DNA of 64,000 nt, from positions 1 to 64,000 of the forward strand of contig JAKLKO010000005.1 of NCBI GenBank assembly GCA_023150615.1, given 5' to 3'. The DNA is from Phycisphaerae bacterium (GTDB taxonomy: Bacteria; Planctomycetota; Phycisphaerae; UBA1845; UTPLA1). Shown here piece by piece: positions 34,518-53,429 of this stretch. Under the pieces are notes generated by a model. The model searched no databases. It was not told the DNA's origin and worked only from the letters and a program-made list of their open reading frames with translations. A program made the translations under genes and the position numbers. Numbering within the stretch: the stretch's first letter is position 1; every line of letters begins with the position of its first letter.

Positions 34518-35726
34518 ATGCGGACGATTCCTCTCCTGACGCTTGAATCGCAGATCAAACGCGGCTTCCGCCGCCATCTTCTGGGTCTCGGGTTTTCCCG
34601 GAACGCGGACGGCGGGCTCACACCTCCCTCGGGCAGCAAGGAAGCCGTACGAGCCCTGCATGCAGAACAGCGTCGCGCAAGGCTGGCAGCCGAAAAGGGG
34701 TTCGTGGCGACTGAGTGGCCGAAGCTCAAGGAGTATTTCGCTGACGGTTCCGATGTCGATCCGACTCAAATCAGCCCCCGACTCGAGCTGATTGCCTCGG
34801 ATACCTGGCAATCGCGGCTCTTCCGGCTGGCGTCCTTGACGTGGAGTGTTCCGGTCTCGCAAGGTTATGGGCGCCGCATGCGGTTTCTCGTGTGGGACGA
34901 TTTCAACGGAAGATTGATTGGTCTGATTGCTCTAGGCGACCCGGTTTTCAACCTCTCGGTTCGGGACGAGTACATCGGCTGGAACGCCGAGCAACGTCGA
35001 CAGCGCCTTGTCAACGTCATGGATGCATACGTGCTCGGAGCGGTGCCCCCGTACAACTCGCTTCTTGGCGGAAAGCTCCTCGCGTCGCTGGTTCGATCAC
35101 AGGAAGTGCGCGACGCGTTCGCCGAGCGGTACGCTGACGCAACTGGGATAATCTCGAAGACGAAGAAGAGACCAGAGCTCGTTCTCGTTACGACCACGTC
35201 GGCACTGGGAAGATCGTCGGTCTACAACAGGCTTAAGCTCAAGGGGTCGCCCCTATTCAAGCCGATCGGCTTCACGAAGGGTTGGGGGCACTTTCATGTT
35301 ACGGACTCGACGTTCGATCAGATTCGGCAGTATCTGAAGCGGAAGCGGCACCGCTACGCATCCGGCTTCAAGTACGGCGACGGTCCTAACTGGCGGTTGC
35401 GGGCCACGCGACTGGCCGTGCAACTGGTCGGCCTGCGACCGGAACTCCTGCGTCACGGCGTTCAGCGAGAAGTCTATGTTTGCGAACTGGCTACGAACGC
35501 AAAGGCCGTGCTACGCGGCAGGCACAAGCGCGCCAAGTATCCCGACCTCCTTTCCGCTAAGCAGGTTTCCGATCTTGCCCGCGAGCGGTGGGTCGAACCG
35601 CGAGCTGGCCGATGCCCCGAGTACAAGCTCCACAAGAGGGATGCCATCGTCGAATTGTTGCGTCGCACACCGGTTCGGTCCGCGATTTCCTTGCAGGTAG
35701 CAACCCGTGGCTCTTGCGCAACTTGA
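34518..35726 (+). CDS. DruA-like protein (DUF4338), Druantia-type anti-phage component
   Basis: The 402-aa protein matches the DUF4338 family, the domain of DruA from the Druantia defence system, also in length. Family landmarks are MRFLVWDDFNGRLIGLIALG, VRDEYIGWNAEQRRQRL, VMDAYVLGAVPPYNSLLGGK, VLVTTTSALGRSSVYNRL and LLRHGVQREVYVCEL. No signal peptide or membrane segment is seen. It is the first gene of a tight three-gene operon; the NurA-like gene starts 20 bp before its stop. The biochemical role of DruA is not settled. In classical type I Druantia it is followed by druB-druE, which are not recognisable here. Confidence 0.85.
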   Translation: MRTIPLLTLESQIKRGFRRHLLGLGFSRNADGGLTPPSGSKEAVRALHAEQRRARLAAEKGFVATEWPKLKEYFADGSDVDPTQISPRLELIASDTWQSRLFRLASLTWSVPVSQGYGRRMRFLVWDDFNGRLIGLIALGDPVFNLSVRDEYIGWNAEQRRQRLVNVMDAYVLGAVPPYNSLLGGKLLASLVRSQEVRDAFAERYADATGIISKTKKRPELVLVTTTSALGRSSVYNRLKLKGSPLFKPIGFTKGWGHFHVTDSTFDQIRQYLKRKRHRYASGFKYGDGPNWRLRATRLAVQLVGLRPELLRHGVQREVYVCELATNAKAVLRGRHKRAKYPDLLSAKQVSDLARERWVEPRAGRCPEYKLHKRDAIVELLRRTPVRSAISLQVATRGSCAT

Positions 35727-36870
35727 TCTCGAGGCACTTCGGGCTCGCGTCGTCGCCGCTTACAGACGCGACGATCCCCTGTTTCAGCAATTCCGCGGCT
35801 TCGCGCGGCGGCTTAAGGAGAAGATCAGGCCCCTCCGGACGTATTCCGTAAATGCTGTGTCCTTCGTCTCGGCGGATGGCGGCGACAATCGCCTTGTCTT
35901 CAATCCTTCGACGATCGAGCTCATTCGTGTGGTGGACTCCCGGGGCGTAGAGTGCGTGCTGGACGCTGTTGCGAGCACCGCGAAGCTCGATGAACTTGAG
36001 GCCAGGGCCACGACCGGCGGCTCGGCGACAGTTGGACCGTTGGAACGGCTCTGCTCGGCCCTGGGCAAGAAGTTGTCGGAATTGTCCTACATCCTCGGTT
36101 CCATCGATAAACCCGGAAAGAGCACGGGGGCCATTCGCTGCTACCGGGACATTGTCGAATGGGCGGTCCTGTACGATTTGGTGACCAATCCCTCCATTCA
36201 GTGGGGGACTGACACAATTCTCGTACGCGATGGGCTCTTGCGAACGAAGTCGTTCCGACGGGACGTATTCCCACTGATCGACAAGCTGCTGCGCGAGGGC
36301 GTGGCGACACACGGCAGGCGGAATATCCTGTTGTCGGTCGTTGGCGTTGCGAAGCTGAGCGCCGTGCTCAGTCGACTCGCCGTCGCGCTCGAACTCGAGG
36401 CAACTTTCCACAAGCCGTATCCGTGCTACGTTCAGGTCGACCGGGAAATCGAGGAGGCGTGCTACAATTTCGATCGAACCTGGCTTGATACGTATGAGTC
36501 TTCCGAACCCGGCGAGGAAGGCCAAAAGCTCTACCAGGCGTTAGGACGGCTGTTCCTGGTGAAGTTCGGGGATCGGCCGCTTGACCCGGTATGGCCGGTG
36601 GACATCGCCGAGTGGCAGGTTCAGCAGGTCGATAAGATCCTTGGGCAGTTGACAGTCGATGCTCAGCAGGGCTTTCCAATCCCCGATTATCCGATGTGTA
36701 TCCAGCGTGCTCATGACTACGCAAAACTCACCGGGCTCGAAATCGCGGTCTTGCAGGATGTTCTTGTGGAGGGGATGTGCTCGCAACTCAAACCGGACGA
36801 GGTAGAACGCCTGCTCCGTCTGAAATACCTGAAACAGTCGCTGACATCGCTGCGATACAAGGAGGCCTGA
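35707..36870 (+). CDS. NurA-like nuclease
   Basis: The 387-aa protein has the motif layout of NurA, the RNase H-fold nuclease that works with the HerA ATPase. A first acidic motif, VSFVSADGGDNRLVF, has DGG at the place of the catalytic Asp. A second, DTILVRDGLLRTKSF, carries Asp-Gly before a Leu, then ILLSVVGVAK in place of the usual strand, and a C-terminal region (MCIQRAHDYAKLTG) typical of the fold. It starts with GTG inside the end of the druA-like gene, and the HerA-like gene follows after 4 bp, so expression is coupled. NurA-HerA pairs resect DNA in archaea and act in several bacterial defence systems. The NurA assignment rests on motifs plus the HerA neighbour. Confidence 0.7.
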   Translation: MALAQLDLEALRARVVAAYRRDDPLFQQFRGFARRLKEKIRPLRTYSVNAVSFVSADGGDNRLVFNPSTIELIRVVDSRGVECVLDAVASTAKLDELEARATTGGSATVGPLERLCSALGKKLSELSYILGSIDKPGKSTGAIRCYRDIVEWAVLYDLVTNPSIQWGTDTILVRDGLLRTKSFRRDVFPLIDKLLREGVATHGRRNILLSVVGVAKLSAVLSRLAVALELEATFHKPYPCYVQVDREIEEACYNFDRTWLDTYESSEPGEEGQKLYQALGRLFLVKFGDRPLDPVWPVDIAEWQVQQVDKILGQLTVDAQQGFPIPDYPMCIQRAHDYAKLTGLEIAVLQDVLVEGMCSQLKPDEVERLLRLKYLKQSLTSLRYKEA

Positions 36871-36874
36871 CCCG

Positions 36875-38929
36875 ATGCTATTCGCCGATTCCCAGGCCAT
36901 GGGCACCTTCAAGGGGTTTAATGAACGCGGCTTAGAATTCGCCGCCGAGATCGTCGCCCCCTACGAAGCTTCCATGCTCGACCGTCCCCAGCTCGGTCAG
37001 TTCGTGCTCATCGAGCTTGGCTCCGTCGAGGAAGCTGCACTCGGCCGGATCACGCGGTTTGTGCCGTCTGGGCTTCTGGCGACCGCCGAGGGAGAGGACT
37101 ACGTGAACACGATGCAGCGGCGGCAGCAGGCGGTTCCCGAGGATCTGAAACAGCAGCGGCTCAAGTATCGCGTGCAGCTCAAGCTGCTGGGTGCCGTCCG
37201 CATCGTCGATGGCAGGGTCGTCTACGTTCCTTCTCAGCGCCGGCTCCCGCACCTCGGGGCAAGGGTTGCGTTTCCAAGCGCCGCGGTAATCCAGGAGCTG
37301 TGCCGCCTTAGCGGCGGGCAGACCGACCTTGGCGACTACGTGCTCGGTGAGTTCGTGTTCGCTGGCGCACCCACGCCGCCTCCGGCGCCACACTTCCGGA
37401 CCATCGACCCGAAGCTGACCGTCACGTTCGACATCCACAACCTCGTTTCGCGTCGCAGCGTCGTGTTCGCACGTGCCGGTTACGGCAAGTCAAACTTGAT
37501 GAAGTACCTGATCGCGGAGCTCTATCGCGAGACTCCCAAGACTGAAAATGGCCTTCCGGTAGGCACGTTAATCTTCGACGCTGACGGCGAGTATTTCTGG
37601 CCGGACACAGTGAAGACCCCGCCGCGTCCGGGCCTATGCGACGTGCCGCATTTGAACGACAAGATCGCGGTCTTCACAAATCGCCCGCCGCCTTCGCCGT
37701 ACTACGGGAGCTGGAAGGTCGGCGAAGTCAAACTCGACATTCGCGAGTTGCCTCCCCGCGACGTGATCGGGATCGCCGTTTCGCCGGACCGGCAGGAGCA
37801 CCAGAACGTGCTCAAGCTGAAGGGCGTATCGCGTGATAACTGGACGCGGCTCGTGGATTTGGTCTACGACAAGAGGCTGCAAGCCACTGACGCCGAGATC
37901 GGACCGCTCCTTGGCTATCAGGGCCAGCAACATATTCAGCAGGCGACCGCCGAAATCGCCGCGGCCCGCAGCAACATGAATGCGGTCGTCAGCGTGCTCC
38001 ACGATCCCAACAGCCGCGTGTTGTCTGGGACCATCGAAGGGCTGCGCCGCGGCGGCATCGTCGTTATCGACATCAGCCTGCTCAGCTCTGCTGCCGGCGA
38101 GATGCTCGCGGGGCTGATTCTGCGCAAGCTGTTCTCCTTCAACCAGGAGAACTTCACCGGTGGCCTGCCCATCATCCCGACACTTGCGGTCATCGAGGAG
38201 GCGCAAAGCGTCCTGGGCGGCCGTCTGTCTGAAACCAGCCCCTTCGTCGAGTGGGTGAAGGAGGGGCGCAAGTACGAGCTCGGCGCGATGTTGATCACGC
38301 AACAGCCGGGCTCTCTCGCCGGCGAGCTGCTGAGCCAAGCGGACAACTGGTTCACGTTTCACCTGCTTTCGGAGGGCGACGCGGGAATCCTCGGCAAGTA
38401 CAACGCCCACTTCTCTGACGACGTGCTTGCCCACCTGATCGGCGAGCCCATTCCCGGCAACTGCTTCATGTGGAGCGCCCCGAAACAGCCGTTCGTACTG
38501 CCGGTTCGTATTCGCAGCTTCGAGGACCTGTACCGGGCCAACGTCAACACGAACAAACAGGCCGGGGCGATTGGCGGAACATTGGCAGGCGAGATCACAA
38601 ATATGACAGCCGGCGCGATCGACCGGCTTGCGAAGGCGCTCCTCTCGAAACTCAAGGAGCCGAATACGAAATTTCGCCAAATGGATGATGTAGCTGGCGG
38701 CGAGGGTCTGATCGCCATCAAAGGCGGGCAGCTCTACTACCTGATCAAGGACGTCAAGACGCCGGCAGACACGACGCCCGAGGACAACCTTAAGCTACCG
38801 CTCCTCACGGAATTGCTCGGCCAGGGCGTCGTTCAGGTGCTCAAGGATGCACAGGGCAGCGACTGGTTCTGCGCCCCGGAGGCAAACTGGCAAAAGGCGG
38901 GCGTTCGGCCAAATATCCGACCTTTATGA
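36875..38929 (+). CDS. HerA-like ATPase/helicase
   Basis: The 684-aa protein has an N-terminal HAS-barrel-like domain (residues 1-150), then a FtsK/HerA-type ATPase core. Walker A is ARAGYGKSNLMKYL (Lys205), followed by GTLIFDADGEYFW, Walker B LAVIEEAQSVLGG (about residues 437-445) and the sensor motif LITQQPGSL. These rings translocate on double-stranded DNA and usually feed a nuclease such as NurA, which is encoded immediately upstream. The gene ends 8 bp before the end of the convergent large helicase gene, so the two operons are packed tail to tail. There is no sign of decay. Confidence 0.85.
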   Translation: MLFADSQAMGTFKGFNERGLEFAAEIVAPYEASMLDRPQLGQFVLIELGSVEEAALGRITRFVPSGLLATAEGEDYVNTMQRRQQAVPEDLKQQRLKYRVQLKLLGAVRIVDGRVVYVPSQRRLPHLGARVAFPSAAVIQELCRLSGGQTDLGDYVLGEFVFAGAPTPPPAPHFRTIDPKLTVTFDIHNLVSRRSVVFARAGYGKSNLMKYLIAELYRETPKTENGLPVGTLIFDADGEYFWPDTVKTPPRPGLCDVPHLNDKIAVFTNRPPPSPYYGSWKVGEVKLDIRELPPRDVIGIAVSPDRQEHQNVLKLKGVSRDNWTRLVDLVYDKRLQATDAEIGPLLGYQGQQHIQQATAEIAAARSNMNAVVSVLHDPNSRVLSGTIEGLRRGGIVVIDISLLSSAAGEMLAGLILRKLFSFNQENFTGGLPIIPTLAVIEEAQSVLGGRLSETSPFVEWVKEGRKYELGAMLITQQPGSLAGELLSQADNWFTFHLLSEGDAGILGKYNAHFSDDVLAHLIGEPIPGNCFMWSAPKQPFVLPVRIRSFEDLYRANVNTNKQAGAIGGTLAGEITNMTAGAIDRLAKALLSKLKEPNTKFRQMDDVAGGEGLIAIKGGQLYYLIKDVKTPADTTPEDNLKLPLLTELLGQGVVQVLKDAQGSDWFCAPEANWQKAGVRPNIRPL

Positions 38930-38937
38930 TCGCGTAA

Positions 38938-44019
<5,082 letters not shown>

Positions 44020-44046
44020 CATCGAACCTCGCGATGACTCGTCCTG

Positions 44047-44736
44047 TCAGCCCGCGTTCGCAAGCGCGCCATTGACCGCCGTGCAGAACATGGCTGCCGC
44101 GTCCAGCAATTGCTTTGCAAATGTTCGCATCTCGTCTTTCTTGCGCTGCCTCCGTCTGCGAGATCCCCTTCCGCGAGTTTGCGTTTCGATGGCATCCATC
44201 TCGTGAACGATCTGATTGCGCGCCGCAAGCGCATCTCGAACCCCCTGGGGCACCTGGAAGCCCTCAAGCCCCAAGTAGCCCGCGGCTCGCTGGAGCTCTT
44301 CTACACTCTGCAAGCTTTCACCGGTAATGTCGTCGATGATGAAGCCAACGATTGCGGCCTGTGGCGACTCCGAAAGCAGTGCCTCGGCGAGGCGCTGTCC
44401 GCCCCGATCGTCAATGGTCTTGAGCAAGCGGCGATGAACATGGTCGCGAGCAGCCTTCAGCGCCTTAGCGTTCTTCGTGACGAGAGCATGCAGGGAGTCC
44501 CGAATGATCCTCTTGACCACAATGTCCAGCGTCGCGCCGGCCATCACAAGCATCGCCCGCAGAAGGTCCTGATCCTCGTGTGTCGGCGCGCCTCGACCGC
44601 GGGATTCCGTGAGCGTGTCGTAGAGGTCCGCCAACGAGTTCGTGGATGCGATCCCGTATTCCAGTAGTTCGTGCGCTCTCTTCAGGAGCTCGGTGCTCGG
44701 CGCGTTTGGCGGCGCCATCACTGGGGTCCTAGCCAT
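44047..44736 (-). CDS. HEPN-motif protein in the defence island
   Basis: The 229-aa helical soluble protein starts at ATG 44736 with AAGGAGA about 9 bases upstream. The C-terminal third contains ARNQIVHEMD, which fits the R(N)xxxH motif of HEPN ribonuclease domains, preceded by long helices (LLRAMLVMAGATLDIVVKRI). HEPN proteins often act as RNA-cutting effectors in abortive infection or toxin systems, but no partner nucleotidyltransferase is present. A basic patch (RGRGSRRRRQRKKDE) follows the motif. Its start overlaps the end of the chimeric gene at 44729 by 8 bp, and the helicase follows after 27 bp, so all three are one operon. The HEPN assignment rests on the motif and the helical layout. 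Confidence 0.6.
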   Translation of the reverse strand: MARTPVMAPPNAPSTELLKRAHELLEYGIASTNSLADLYDTLTESRGRGAPTHEDQDLLRAMLVMAGATLDIVVKRIIRDSLHALVTKNAKALKAARDHVHRRLLKTIDDRGGQRLAEALLSESPQAAIVGFIIDDITGESLQSVEELQRAAGYLGLEGFQVPQGVRDALAARNQIVHEMDAIETQTRGRGSRRRRQRKKDEMRTFAKQLLDAAAMFCTAVNGALANAG

Positions 44737-45136
44737 GCCGTTGGTCTCCTTGACTGATGCGGATATTGAGGTCCAACAGGCGCCGAAGAATCTGCCGCCG
44801 GGTGTCGGGGCTGATAGTGTACCGCGTCTGGCCGCGTTCGTTGGCGTGGAAGCCGTGCCTGGGGTCGAGGTCCGTCCAGCCGTAGCAGGCCAGGATCGCC
44901 CGGTCCATTGACGCATGCAACTCGTGCAGCCGGCCCTGGCCGGCCAACTCGTCCACCGTCGCCGCACGGGCGTACGAAGGGCTGACCTGAAGCAGAAAGT
45001 CCGGCCACAGGCGTGACTCCTCGTCGAGGGCCTGATCGACGAACGCCCTGGCCCGCGCGTCGGCGGTCAGGAAGAACGACCGCACGAAGTCGCGGTAGTC
45101 GGCGAGGACGGCGGAATGGAGGTCAAAAATGCCCAT
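44729..45136 (-). CDS. Chimeric small gene: helicase N-terminus joined to a methylase C-terminus
   Basis: The 135-aa frame starts [20 protein letters not shown]. Its first 71 residues are nearly identical to the N-terminus of the large helicase. After QGRLHE it changes to LHASMDRAILACYGW, then RYTISPDTRRQILRRLLDLN, a sequence typical of the extreme C-terminus of Eco57I/PglX-type DNA methylases. The shared part is the 213-bp repeat at 44924-45136. The gene is thus a recombination product that lost the middle of both parents. It may be a decaying relic, but its frame is intact and overlaps the HEPN gene start, so it could serve only as a translated leader. Confidence 0.8.
   Translation of the reverse strand: MGIFDLHSAVLADYRDFVRSFFLTADARARAFVDQALDEESRLWPDFLLQVSPSYARAATVDELAGQGRLHELHASMDRAILACYGWTDLDPRHGFHANERGQTRYTISPDTRRQILRRLLDLNIRISQGDQRHG
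44924..45136 (-). repeat. 213-bp direct repeat, copy 2 (in the chimeric gene)
   Basis: Second copy of the helicase 5' end, see 43807-44019. Recombination between the copies would delete the chimeric gene and the HEPN gene and restore one intact helicase start. Confidence 0.9.
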
Positions 45137-45299
45137 ACTCTCCGGGCCCGCGGCAAAGTTTCGATAAGTCGTTGCATGCCAAGACGTTAGAGCCAGCAGG
45201 GCGAACATCTCCGCTAACGCGATCGCGGCGCCCGCGCCCGCCCGTAGGCGTGGCGGCCAGATGCGCTAAGATGCTCTCCGTGGTTGGAGGAAGCGAACG

Positions 45300-45913
45300 A
45301 TGGACCTGCAGTACGTCGTATTCACCTACCGAGAGGTCCAGCTCGCCCTCAAGGGCGAGCGCGGAAAGATCGGCGACCCGCAGTTGGAGTTTGCTCGAAC
45401 CGGAAGTCAGTATGTGCTGAAGGTTCATGCGTTCGTCCAGGAGGCGTGGGATTCCGCACGCGATCCGCAGGATCACCTTGACTTTTACGTCCATCAGGAC
45501 CTGATTGACGACCTTGAGTCCGAGGTTCAAGCTTGGGCTGGTCCCGCTAACGCCCAACAATTCCCAGCTACTAACCCACGGTGGTCTGCGACCGGCGCCA
45601 CTCGGCTCTTCTACGTTTTCGATAGATCTGAGATTCCGACCATCCGCGCAGAAATCGTGCTCGGCGCCGGTATTCATGGGCCGCGCTCTTTGGCGAGCGA
45701 CTCGATTCGTCTCTTTGTTGATCGCGAGGTACCGCAGCGCGGTCGAGGTTTTCAAGCACGTGTGCACTTCGGGGCTGTCGGGGCGTTCGTCCTCGGCGCT
45801 CCAGTTCAAGGCGGAGCAAGCGACGAAATCGCGATTCACTTCGATCGTGCCCAGGCATCTATGGTTGCATCGGCGGTACAATACGTCATCGATGAACATA
45901 GATCGCGCAATCC

Positions 45914-45917
<4 letters not shown>
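45300..45917 (+). CDS. Unknown protein encoded against the island direction
   Basis: The 205-aa protein has GGAGG 9 bases before ATG 45300. I do not recognise the family. It is soluble and mixed alpha/beta (MDLQYVVFTYREVQLALKGE, then DFYVHQDLIDDLESEV, then IRAEIVLGAGIHGP), with no membrane segment or catalytic motif I can name. Its 3' end overlaps the 3' end of the methylase gene by 4 bp on the other strand. It is the only + strand gene between the methylase and the helicase group, so it has its own promoter in 45137-45299. It could be a regulator, immunity or accessory factor. Confidence 0.7.
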
Positions 45918-49441
<3,524 letters not shown>

Positions 49442-49443
49442 CG

Positions 49444-52344
49444 TCAAACCACCGGCTGCAGTACAAGGACGCCGAGCAAATCCGGCGGGAGCTGCGGCTT
49501 GACCGAGAGTTCACGAACACGAAGCGAAACGGCCTGACGAACGCGCTTGTGACTCTTTTCGAGCTCAGCGGCGCGGGCAGCGATCTGGTCGCGCAACGCC
49601 GGCTCGTGCCGGGGCCACTGATCCAGTGCCTCCGCGACGAGTTGCCGCTTCTCCGGCATCGGGACGTTCGCGTCGGGCTTGGCGTCGGTGAGGAGGCGCC
49701 GCGCCTCGTCCTCATTGAGCCAGGTCGCTCGACTTGCATCAGCGTCGGTGTAACCGCGGACGATCACCTCCTCAGAAAGCAGCGGAACGCTCTGGCCCGG
49801 CTGTTCGATCAGATATCGCACGCGCAACAGCAGGATGGTCGTAAGCCGGCTGACCGAGCGAGTGCGAATCACGCCGCAGCGAGACGCCTTGGCCTCGCTG
49901 CCCTTCGTCAGCGCCTCCTCGAAGAGGAAGCGCGCGAGGGCGGCCACGAAGCGATGATTACGACCGAGGTACTCGGCACCCTCGGGCGTCGGCGACGTAA
50001 AGCTGATCAACCACTGTCCGTCTTTTCTCGCCGGCAGGGCATAGCCTACTGCCGCAGGCACCGTTGCCGTGGCGCCTTCACTGATCGCGACGCGGAACAC
50101 GTCGCGCTGCCTTGTCTTCGTGATACTCAAGCCGATGCGTTGGGCGGCGCTCAGGACGAACTCGCGGACTTCGGCCGGGTCGCCCAGGACGGCGTCGGTC
50201 GCTTCCAGCTCTTGGCGGACCTCGGCCGGCTTCAGCGCCCGCTGCGCGAAACGAGTGCGGTTGATCTTCTCCCGCTCGGCGTCGCGTTCCCAGCGACGGT
50301 GAAACTTCGTAACCGGCGATTCCTCACCGCCGAAATGAAACTGCATTTGCGGCTTGTCTGCCTTGTCGCCGCGCAGGAACAAGGCGTTCAACACGGCCTC
50401 GGTGACGGACTCGCTTTCCACCGGCACGGGCACGTGTGTGCCGAGCGTCCTGTGGATTTCGCGGGCCTTGTTGAGCAGAACTTCGAGCACGACGCCATCG
50501 ACGGCGCTGTCAGGGCTGAAGTAGCGGATCGTCTTCACGACCTTGGCCGTCTGGCCGTATCGATCCACACGCCCTTCGCGCTGTTCGAGACGGTTCGGAT
50601 TCCACGGAAGGTCGTAGTGGAGCGCGGCGTTGAACGCGTGCTGAAGATTGATGCCCTCGCTCAGGCAGTCCGTTGCGACGAGGACCCGCAGCGGCGCTTG
50701 GGCGAGCTCCTCGACCTTCGTGCGTCGCTCGTCGTCGCCGATTCGACCGGTGATCGCGACAACGCGGATTCCCGCGTGCCGATCCCGAAGCGCGCGCTCC
50801 AATCCTTCGGCGACGTAATCTGCAGTTGCGATGTACCGGCACCAGATAATCGGGTGGAAGCCCTCGCGGAGAACCTGGTCCACGAGATCGGCGCAACGGA
50901 CCACTTTTGTATCAGCACTCGAGTGAAGCAATGCTGCTGCCTGGCGGCCAAGCTCGCGCAGGCGACGGCGGTCGGATTCCTCCAACGTGGCTTCGGCGGC
51001 CTCGACGGGGGGCGTCGGCTGCTCGTCGTCGGTTACGTCGTCGCTGGATTCAAAGACGAACGGCCGGAGGTCGAGTTCGTCCTCACCAGTGGGCAGCCCT
51101 TCCAGGCGAGTGCTCAGCGCCGCCACTGCGGCGGCCGGACTCGACATGACGCAACGCAGCAGCGCCAGGGCGCCCCAATAGCGCACGCGCTGCCGGCGCC
51201 TGTCGAGGGACTGCCCTGCCTGGACGATCTCCGAGCAGAAGTTGTAGGTGCGCGTGAACAGGTCCTTGTAGTCCGGCGACAGGGGGTACGTTTCGTCCAC
51301 CGGCTCGCGCGTCGGGAAGCAGTGCTCACCTTCCCAGTCTTTTTCGATGTCGCGTCGCGTACGCTGGACGAAGTGCCGCGCAAGCTGAATCCGGTGGTCT
51401 TCGGAGAGCTCCCCCATGACCCACGAGCCAAATTCTGATCGCAGGAGGCTGAGCAGAGATCGAAACGCACTTTCGATGCCGCTATGCGGCGTGGCCGTGA
51501 GCAGGATCAGGTGCCGACCTTCAAGGCCGGCAACCTCTCGCGCGAGCGCGTGGCGCTGATGTTGGCTCTCGCTGCCATCGGCGGCCGCGGACCCGTGCGC
51601 CTCGTCGATGATCACGAGTTCCGGACAATGCAGCAGGAACTGGTGCTTGTTGCGGTCGCTCTTGAGGAAGTCGATGCTGGCAACCTGCACCGGGTAGAAG
51701 TCGTAAAGCGACATATCCCGCGGCTTCCGTGGGTCGCGATCAAGCTGGTTGATCGTACCGGAGCGGATGACCACCGCGTCCAGGTTGAACTTCTCGGACA
51801 ACTCCTTTTGCCACTGCTCGCACAGATAGGGCGGACAGAGGACACAGAACCGCCGGATCTCGCCGCGATCGAGCAGCTCGCGTGCGACGAGTAACGCCTC
51901 GATGGTCTTGCCGACACCAACGTCGTCCGCGATGAGAAGCCGCACGGAGTCGTGGCGCAGCGCCATCAGAAGAGGAACGAACTGGTAAATTCGCGGCCGG
52001 ATCGAGATGCGTCCGAGGGAGCGGAACGGCGTCGCACCCTCGCGCAGCATGAGGCGCGCTGCCTGCCAGAGCAGGTGCGCGCTCGCCGCGTCGGCAAGGT
52101 CGGCCTGTGTTGGCAACGGAAATGCCGCCGAACGAACGCGCTCCTCGGGGAGCGAGTAAAGGCTCAGGTCACGGTGGACGGAAACCGTGTCATCCGTAGC
52201 GCCGGTGAGGGGTCGCAGCCTGAGGATCAAGGCGTCATCGCTAGGCAGAAGGACCCAATCGCGGTTTCGACACCGGACGATCGCGCCCGCCCTCAGCGCC
52301 GGTGGGCCGTGAGCCGCATCTTCTGCCTGACCGCCGATACTCAT
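49444..52344 (-). CDS. SNF2-family helicase (DrmD-like)
   Basis: The 966-aa SNF2 ATPase has motif I, LLIADDVGVGKTIEALL (about residue 140), motif II VIIDEAHG (near 246), motif III LLTATPHSG, and the C-terminal lobe VLVATDCLSEGINLQHA plus REGRVDRYGQT. I start at MSIGGQAED (ATG 52344) because GGAAGGAACC stands directly before it, although the frame runs 140 codons further upstream. Next to a PglX/DrmMI-like methylase this resembles drmD-drmMI of class 1 DISARM and the helicase-methylase pairs of other defence systems. It is the first gene of the - strand operon; the methylase follows with 2 bp spacing. Confidence 0.88.
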   Translation of the reverse strand: MSIGGQAEDAAHGPPALRAGAIVRCRNRDWVLLPSDDALILRLRPLTGATDDTVSVHRDLSLYSLPEERVRSAAFPLPTQADLADAASAHLLWQAARLMLREGATPFRSLGRISIRPRIYQFVPLLMALRHDSVRLLIADDVGVGKTIEALLVARELLDRGEIRRFCVLCPPYLCEQWQKELSEKFNLDAVVIRSGTINQLDRDPRKPRDMSLYDFYPVQVASIDFLKSDRNKHQFLLHCPELVIIDEAHGSAAADGSESQHQRHALAREVAGLEGRHLILLTATPHSGIESAFRSLLSLLRSEFGSWVMGELSEDHRIQLARHFVQRTRRDIEKDWEGEHCFPTREPVDETYPLSPDYKDLFTRTYNFCSEIVQAGQSLDRRRQRVRYWGALALLRCVMSSPAAAVAALSTRLEGLPTGEDELDLRPFVFESSDDVTDDEQPTPPVEAAEATLEESDRRRLRELGRQAAALLHSSADTKVVRCADLVDQVLREGFHPIIWCRYIATADYVAEGLERALRDRHAGIRVVAITGRIGDDERRTKVEELAQAPLRVLVATDCLSEGINLQHAFNAALHYDLPWNPNRLEQREGRVDRYGQTAKVVKTIRYFSPDSAVDGVVLEVLLNKAREIHRTLGTHVPVPVESESVTEAVLNALFLRGDKADKPQMQFHFGGEESPVTKFHRRWERDAEREKINRTRFAQRALKPAEVRQELEATDAVLGDPAEVREFVLSAAQRIGLSITKTRQRDVFRVAISEGATATVPAAVGYALPARKDGQWLISFTSPTPEGAEYLGRNHRFVAALARFLFEEALTKGSEAKASRCGVIRTRSVSRLTTILLLRVRYLIEQPGQSVPLLSEEVIVRGYTDADASRATWLNEDEARRLLTDAKPDANVPMPEKRQLVAEALDQWPRHEPALRDQIAARAAELEKSHKRVRQAVSLRVRELSVKPQLPPDLLGVLVLQPVV

Positions 52345-53429
52345 GGTTCCTTCCATCCAATCCGGTGCGCGTGGCCCGCCTGGGTCACTCAGCCTGCATT
52401 CTGGGTATCCACGCCGGCTCGGCCTGACGAGGGACGTCTTCGGTCTGACATCCGAGACGGCCGCCGCACTTGGCTTGATCTTAAGTCCTGTTGCGAGCGA
52501 GGGGTAGCGGCACGCCCTGCATTCCCCGCGTTTCACGGGCGAGCGCTGCTGCCTCCGCCGGCGCCTCTGGAAAACCGTGGCTGGCTTGATTTCCGTCGTC
52601 CCGGAAGGCAAAGGCGCCAATTGCTGCGGAAGGGTTCCGCTGAGGGGTGTGTTTTGCGGTCGCCAACCCGCCCTCGATTCCCTGCTGCCCGCGGCCAGGT
52701 TGTCGGGGACGAGTGGCCTCGACAGCGCGAGAGTTGCTGCCAGGGTAACGTTCGGGGAGGTCAACGATCGGTCACGAGTCTGGCGACCGGCCAGTTAGCG
52801 CGAAAGCCCGGGCTAGAGAGCGCCCGGGGTTACTCGTTTTGTCGCGAGGATTTGCAACGGTTTGCGCAATGTGTCCGTCACGCGATTCCTCCGTGAGAGT
52901 GCGCCAGGAGCTACGAGAATCTGCCGACCGGGCGTCCGGACGATCCCTTCGTCGCTGTTCCCTCTCTGTTTCTCTGGTTTACATGATGCGTCTGGTTAAC
53001 GCTTCGCGTTCCGCGCCGCGCGACGCGCAACCGTGTTGCTTCATCGGGGGCGAATCCGATCCAGCAGGCCGGAGTCACACGGATTCCAACGCGAGCATGG
53101 ATTGGACCATCGTGCCCAGGCGCCCCGGACGCCCGGGCCAGTGTCCCCCCCGCCTCGAGGATTGATATCAACAGCGGGACATGGTAAACTGACGGGCCGC
53201 GGAACGGACGGGGCGAGCACGAGCACAGGCCCGGTCCGTCCGGCCTCCTCTCCGCCGACCGCAAGGCCGGCAACATCTGCGCGGAACGAGGGCGGCTCAT
53301 GTCCCCGCCGGTCGTTTGGCACGAATACTTTCCTGGAGGGCCGCGTCGGCCCATGCAGCCCGATACCCGGCCGGGCCCGGGCCATGATCCGCATTGCGAA
53401 AAAGGGAGTCTCAACCCAGGAGTCCAGCC
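52345..53429. other. Right edge of the defence island, no gene recognised
   Basis: This region of about 1.1 kb holds no convincing gene. The promoter of the SNF2-methylase operon should lie near its left end. A 7-bp inverted repeat CCCGGGC/GCCCGGG is at 52807-52828. The 15-mer CTTGATCTTAAGTCC at 52474-52488 also occurs at 2665-2679. Open frames on both strands here are short, overlapping and without domains. Confidence 0.5.

Follow-up and report, generated by a model that had tools for sequence, protein, structure and literature searches.

The stretch of DNA analysed here (the window) comprises 64,000 nucleotides of contig JAKLKO010000005.1 from a Phycisphaerae bacterium (assembly GCA_023150615.1). 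On its forward strand it carries three consecutive genes encoding DruA, a NurA-like nuclease and HerA, which together form one tight operon. The operon, its conservation, the families and folds of its proteins and the replacement of one partner by a methyltransferase are results of computational analysis. All three open reading frames were present where a first-pass annotation had placed them, and the overlap of 20 bp between druA and nurA and the gap of 4 bp between nurA and herA were confirmed. The features of the operon are:

34518..35726 (+): druA, encoding a DUF4338/PF14236 GNAT-like protein of 402 amino acids, the proposed writer of a self-DNA modification
35707..36870 (+): nurA-like nuclease gene (TdpB/NurA fold), 387 amino acids, GTG start, assigned by profile match and AlphaFold2 model
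36860..36865 (+): AGGAGG, the ribosome-binding site of herA, within the 3′ end of nurA (read from the sequence)
36875..38929 (+): herA, encoding a HerA/TdpA-type DNA-translocating ATPase of 684 amino acids (PF01935)

The GTG start of nurA (VALAQLD) lines up with the M-A-L-A-N-L-D of its relatives. Promoter-like and terminator-like matches around the operon were not above the level of shuffled sequence. The family assignments of the outer two genes were borne out by searches with hidden Markov models: DruA matched PF14236 over residues 40-334 (E=6.4e-88) and the PADLOC model DruA1 (E=2.5e-177), whilst HerA matched PF01935/DUF87 (E=3.9e-23), with Walker A (ARAGYGKSN) and Walker B (VIEEAQ) motifs conserved in the alignment. 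The nearest solved relative of HerA was TdpA (E=6.9e-40), well ahead of both archaeal HerA (4.2e-16) and the anti-phage HerA entries.

The middle gene had no significant match in Pfam, NCBIfam or PADLOC, and naming it required a profile and a fold. It did not reach the gathering score of the NurA family PF09376 and is for that reason called NurA-like here; a 31%-identical homologue from the same class (G337, at loci L006/L048) passes that cut-off, at 21.2 bits against 21. For a profile of its relatives the only significant sequence in the Protein Data Bank (PDB) was TdpB from the TdpAB cryo-EM structure 8wet (E=5.1e-11), followed by NurA 2ygk (E=1.3) with the AH motif aligned. An AlphaFold2 model, built on a thin alignment (predicted local distance difference test score, pLDDT, 69.3; predicted TM-score, pTM, 0.75), matched TdpB with Z 19.9 over 284 residues and NurA chains with Z 9.3-9.9 (3taz, Z 9.9), with the HerA-NurA structure 9x1m at Z 9.2; NurA chains ranked above Argonaute PIWI entries (about 7). 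D57, E151-W152, D175-G176 and A335-H336 were invariant across 14 aligned sequences. Of these, E151 and D175 line up with the EW and DG motifs of TdpB, AH336 lines up with the AH found in NurA from S. solfataricus, and D57 is assigned through its DG motif alone, so that putative NurA-type catalytic acidic and histidine residues (D57, E151, D175, H336) are present. Judged by profile and model, the middle gene is NurA-like and nearest TdpB, and among solved structures both HerA and the nuclease come nearest to TdpA and TdpB respectively. The identification as NurA had been staked on structure, and the model returned a NurA/TdpB fold, although the expected PF09376 match of the gene itself was not obtained. 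The operon, the identities of the three proteins and the HerA-NurA machine proposed at the outset also held; the pair resembles the Tdp defence proteins more closely than the archaeal end-resecting HerA-NurA.

Distribution of the triplet and a sister clade with a methyltransferase

Genome contigs were searched for close relatives of the nuclease. They were found in ten loci whose hosts include Eisenbacteria, Nitrospira/Nitrospirales, Latescibacterota, Gammaproteobacteria, Bacillota and Acidobacteria, among others, with one more (L082) in an Acidobacteria group. The order DruA-NurA-HerA was intact in nine other genomes (L008-L013, L015, L016, L082) from at least six phyla, and the triplet, which had been open to dismissal as peculiar to one contig, thus amounts to 10 intact loci with the window, plus one decayed copy (L017). 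We refer to these loci as clade A. Where the contig extends far enough to show what precedes the pair, druA lay directly upstream, in 11/11 clade A loci (the window, L008-L013, L015, L016, L082 and the decayed L017); L014 ends at a contig edge and falls outside this count. Given the recurrence of the gene order across loci, the arrangement is not due to chance. Identity among the triplet loci was 61-73% for NurA, 66-70% for HerA and 43-58% for DruA, the most divergent of the three. The triplet is rare and sporadic: NurA relatives, counting all clades, were found in 6/392 genomes of the window's phylum and in 2/247, 2/198 and 3/229 genomes of other groups, and a plasmid collection gave no match for either NurA clade.

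Two of these loci offered further observations. In the decayed Nitrospira copy (L017:6699-9938) the frames of DruA, NurA and HerA are all broken, the three genes having been lost together. The region downstream of the Latescibacterota triplet (L012:12386-17161) contains a gene weakly homologous to the clade B methylase described below (24.9 bits), along with other uncharacterised genes, and may be a second defence system.

A sister group of seven loci (clade B: L053, L054, L055, L063, L083, L084, L085) encodes NurA about 33% and HerA about 43% identical to those of the window. Beside the NurA-HerA pair, all seven carry a DNA methyltransferase of one family (PF01555, E=3e-11 and 4e-10; PADLOC MTase_II) in which the motifs DPFCGRGTT and SPPY are intact. 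DruA was found near none of the seven clade B pairs and a methylase inside none of the clade A operons, so that, in the loci sampled, DruA and the DNA methyltransferase are mutually exclusive partners. In one of them the methylase-NurA-HerA operon is immediately preceded by a serine recombinase (L054:1320-2921), which suggests that this operon travels on a mobile element. Two deep-branching NurA-HerA pairs also occur in genomes of the window's phylum (L056:9754-13171 and L057:10126-13367), and are possibly a repair-type or ancestral form.

No description of DruA together with HerA-NurA was found in the literature searched, which was mostly without subscription papers; searches there on Tdp, on DruA with Mom and on HerA-NurA with a methylase gave no account of the triplet, and the YprA/ARMADA study PMC12458937 makes no mention of HerA or NurA. 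We have filed the triplet as a new variant of Tdp-like HerA-NurA defence system.

DruA, its relatives and phage Mu Mom

The AlphaFold2 model of DruA (pLDDT 76.6, pTM 0.74) matched acetyltransferase-like folds. VIA-align placed phage Mu Mom (8bv8) at the head of 999 chains, with Z 9.2 across 181 residues, in a tie with other GNATs; nearly all the remaining chains were GNATs, and Mom was the only DNA-modification enzyme among the matches shown. Of 14 DUF4338 proteins, 5 matched Pfam Mom (PF25680) under its cut-off (E 0.0026-0.02), and Mom was the only other Pfam family matched by more than one member; the window DruA itself did not match PF25680. Comparison by hhalign of the DUF4338 proteins associated with transposons gave 95.9% (E=6e-9) against Mom, where 200 column shuffles reached 5.6% at most, and 97% (E=9e-11) against DruA. 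In a joint alignment these transposon-type proteins keep H48, Y49, S114, Y149 and N153 of Mom and, in most cases, D139. The Mom sequences for comparison were taken from phages; a search for the family in 124 gammaproteobacterial genomes gave no match and was uninformative. On these profile and model comparisons DruA is placed in a GNAT-like superfamily with Mom, and DUF4338 has independently been described as a GNAT domain (PMC10853773).

Moreover, DruA is found well beyond the triplet. The window DruA grouped with that of a Druantia type I locus, L051, which also has DruD and DruE (support 96/93, 60% identical), and the DruA proteins of the other triplets fell apart from it; DruA therefore moves as a module between effectors. 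Its plasmid relatives adjoin a large DEAD/DEAH helicase, in a Druantia-like order in 2/3. Members of the DruA subfamily were also present on viral contigs, near replication genes in L061 and near tail and head genes in L062, with neither HerA-NurA nor DruE in view. Such stand-alone homologues in viral DNA resemble Mom in their occurrence, and fit a DNA-modification gene better than a loader of HerA-NurA.

Several other relatives were observed. In the marine Pelagibacter phage Mosig a DUF4338 gene (L130:2551-3846) shares its block with MazG and a pair of 2-oxoglutarate/phytanoyl-type dioxygenases, which suggests DNA base modification. With Foldseek E values of 4e-14 to 3e-7, the predicted structures of giant-virus proteins (Faunusvirus, Yasminevirus, Dasosvirus) match the DruA model more closely than any entry in the PDB does. 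DUF4338 is also fused to Tn5/IS4-type or DDE_5 transposases, or lies beside an IS66-like transposase (L027:1198-3516, L041:1429-3453, L032:1189-2094), and these transposon-associated genes are multi-copy in several genomes. Since they keep the residues conserved in Mom, they may be transposon-borne enzymes that modify DNA as Mom does, to which annotation pipelines give the name 'Druantia DruA'. At the window locus DruA is single-copy in its genome, and the idea that it is an insertion-sequence transposase was ruled out.

A possible self-marking role for DruA and its alternatives

Tdp is a self-marking system in which TdpAB is paired with TdpC, a phosphorothioate writer, and TdpAB is thought to pump and degrade DNA that lacks the phosphorothioate mark. 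With this in mind, we propose, at a probability of roughly 0.5, that DruA-NurA-HerA is a self-contained anti-invader system of the restriction-modification type. DruA, as a GNAT-like and Mom-related protein, would mark the cell's own DNA chemically; HerA, as a TdpA-like hexameric pump, and NurA, as a TdpB-like nuclease, would load on DNA, translocate along it and degrade it. The mark would stop HerA-NurA on self DNA, leaving phage or plasmid DNA as the presumed target. That the system consists of a writer and a nuclease blocked by the mark is suggested by homology and by the methylase replacement. DruA is put forward as a writer rather than a loader because of the methyltransferase in the sister clade, the relation to Mom and TdpAB as the nearest solved pair, and on these grounds the loading or recognition factor envisaged in the first-pass annotation is disfavoured and a modification writer is the more likely. 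DruM is a methylase. In Druantia, the place of DruM and DruG, which are required in type II, is taken in type I by DruA (PMC8565338), a parallel that hints at the same role.

A number of observations weigh against this proposal. The change between DruA and methylase coincides with a single split in the trees of NurA and HerA, and therefore represents one replacement with no independent repeats. The position of the clade B methylase varies, being upstream, downstream or on the other strand in convergent orientation, and the divergent pairs of L056 and L057 have no DruA, methyltransferase or recognised modifier nearby. The structural match of the DruA model to Mom is in tie range, other GNATs scoring 8.8 and below against 9.2, and Foldseek returned no PDB match with E below 0.001. 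A DruA-only profile gave no direct hhalign signal against Mom, and DruA profile A7 matched no PDB sequence; as profiles of DruA miss Mom whilst the transposon-type DUF4338 proteins link to both, the homology is transitive. Lastly, DruA lacks most of the residues conserved in Mom, keeping only Y149 and some glycines in the joint alignment: Mom H48-Y49 is replaced by gap/S, D139 by T, N153 by K/R, and Ser124 (in the 241-residue frame; S114 in the 231-residue frame) by Gly, S124A being the mutant in the inactive 8bv8 crystal structure. DruA has its own invariant set instead (R119, R149, D150, W155, P177, Y205, G231, Y236). With the Mom residues lost and this set kept, the chemistry of DruA may differ from that of Mom, or DruA may catalyse nothing and act as a reader only.

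The latter option leads to the first alternative, a reader or loader without catalytic activity. With a Mom-like fold that has degenerated, DruA would recognise a phage modification, end or structure in DNA and recruit or license HerA-NurA. The loss of the Mom residues is in keeping with this, as is the faster divergence of DruA relative to its two partners, which is as expected of a recognition subunit. However, the large invariant set of DruA is suggestive of an active site, the sister clade has as its partner a methyltransferase whose motifs are intact, i.e. a writer, and the viral contigs have DruA with no HerA-NurA nearby to load. We consider this reading unlikely, though deserving of some weight.

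Rather less probable still is that DruA, as an enzyme of the GNAT type, has protein or tRNA as its substrate, either as an effector or as a regulator that acetylates HerA or NurA, with HerA-NurA acting on DNA. The fold of DruA is a generic GNAT one, and GNAT domains fused to DndF have been suggested to be suicidal effectors on proteins (PMC10853773). Yet across all Pfam models the DUF4338 members match Mom and not the acetyltransferase families, their occurrence alone in phages and in transposase fusions is a better fit to action on DNA, and it is a methylase that replaces DruA in the sister clade.

We give very little weight to a third alternative, that the operon is a DNA end-resection or repair machine with no role in defence. 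Archaeal HerA-NurA resects ends (PMC12977600), and L056 and L057 provide canonical-like pairs without partners in the window's phylum. The sporadic occurrence of the genes in all groups counted speaks against this alternative. The close similarity that they retain between phyla, the defence island around the operon in the window and the DNA-modification partners indicate a mobile defence module.

More broadly, and at somewhat short of even odds, DruA may be the founding member of a family of DNA-modifying enzymes with a GNAT fold and non-Mom chemistry. They would form an interchangeable self-marking module for two or more unrelated restriction engines (HerA-NurA and Druantia DruE), for phages and for transposons. 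If so, HerA-NurA with an exchangeable writer (phosphorothioate, methyl or DruA mark) would be a general class of restriction-modification system. No mechanism for DruA was found in the literature searched, though it is a named part of Druantia; a minimal three-gene system, the remainder of which has a solved counterpart in TdpAB, gives it a concrete and testable role. Were DruA to write a DNA mark, this would suggest how Druantia type I spares its host and point to a new DNA modification, HerA-NurA would emerge as a common engine of restriction whose writers can be exchanged for one another, and many transposon genes annotated as 'Druantia anti-phage system protein DruA' would be mislabelled Mom-like enzymes.

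Neighbouring genes and comparison with known systems

Convergent with the triplet, and outside it, lies a set of genes resembling ARMADA type I (38938-52374, - strand) in reversed gene order, an order that has been reported for many archaea and cyanobacteria (PMC12458937):

38938..44022 (-): YprA-family helicase with MZB and a weak C-terminal DUF559/Vsr-like domain (ARMADA type I-like), convergent with herA and 8 bp from it
45914..49447 (-): PglX/DrmMI-like DNA methyltransferase of the ARMADA-like set (Eco57I PF07669, E=9.8e-27; DrmMI, E=4e-89)
49444..52374 (-), start possibly out to 52764: DrmD/BrxHII-like SNF2 helicase of the ARMADA-like set (NCBIfam DrmD at E=5.4e-98, short of the cut-off of that model)

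Within this set a 214-bp direct repeat (93%; 43806-44019 and 44923-45136) copies the 5′ end of the YprA gene. Between the copies are an open reading frame (44047-44967) that matches HEPN weakly and a stretch similar to the C-terminus of a methylase. We read this region as a recombination scar or an inserted gene in the ARMADA-like operon.

That DruA serves this YprA helicase in a hybrid Druantia/ARMADA locus is hardly credible, even though its known partner DruE is a YprA-family helicase (PMC12458937) and the window gene ends so close to herA, because the YprA gene is on the opposite strand and the nine other triplet genomes have no YprA, PglX-like or SNF2 homologues in the fetched flanks. As the other triplets are without these neighbour genes, the view that the triplet is part of the ARMADA-like set was rejected.

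Among known systems, phage Mu Mom, a DNA adenine modification enzyme, shares with DruA a GNAT-like fold and, via the transposon-type DUF4338 proteins, profile homology, whereas DruA is without most of the Mom-conserved residues, is cellular and stands in an operon with a nuclease. The archaeal and bacterial HerA-NurA of end resection have the same enzyme pair and folds (NurA, Z 9.2-9.9), but the triplet has a third, modification-like gene and is sporadic and horizontally spread. In the SIR2-HerA and DUF4297-HerA anti-phage systems (PADLOC HerA models) a HerA translocase is likewise coupled to a defence effector; in the triplet a nuclease of the NurA/TdpB type takes the part of this effector, with DruA as an additional component. 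Druantia type I has a DruA of the same subfamily, that of L051 being nearest to the window protein. However, the operon contains no DruB-DruE, and hence no YprA-family DruE helicase, its effector being HerA-NurA. Tdp (TdpABC) also combines a DNA-pump/nuclease pair with a third gene, HerA being closest to TdpA and the nuclease to TdpB among solved structures. The difference lies in this conserved third gene, which is DruA in clade A or a DNA methyltransferase in clade B, TdpC genes not having been searched for.

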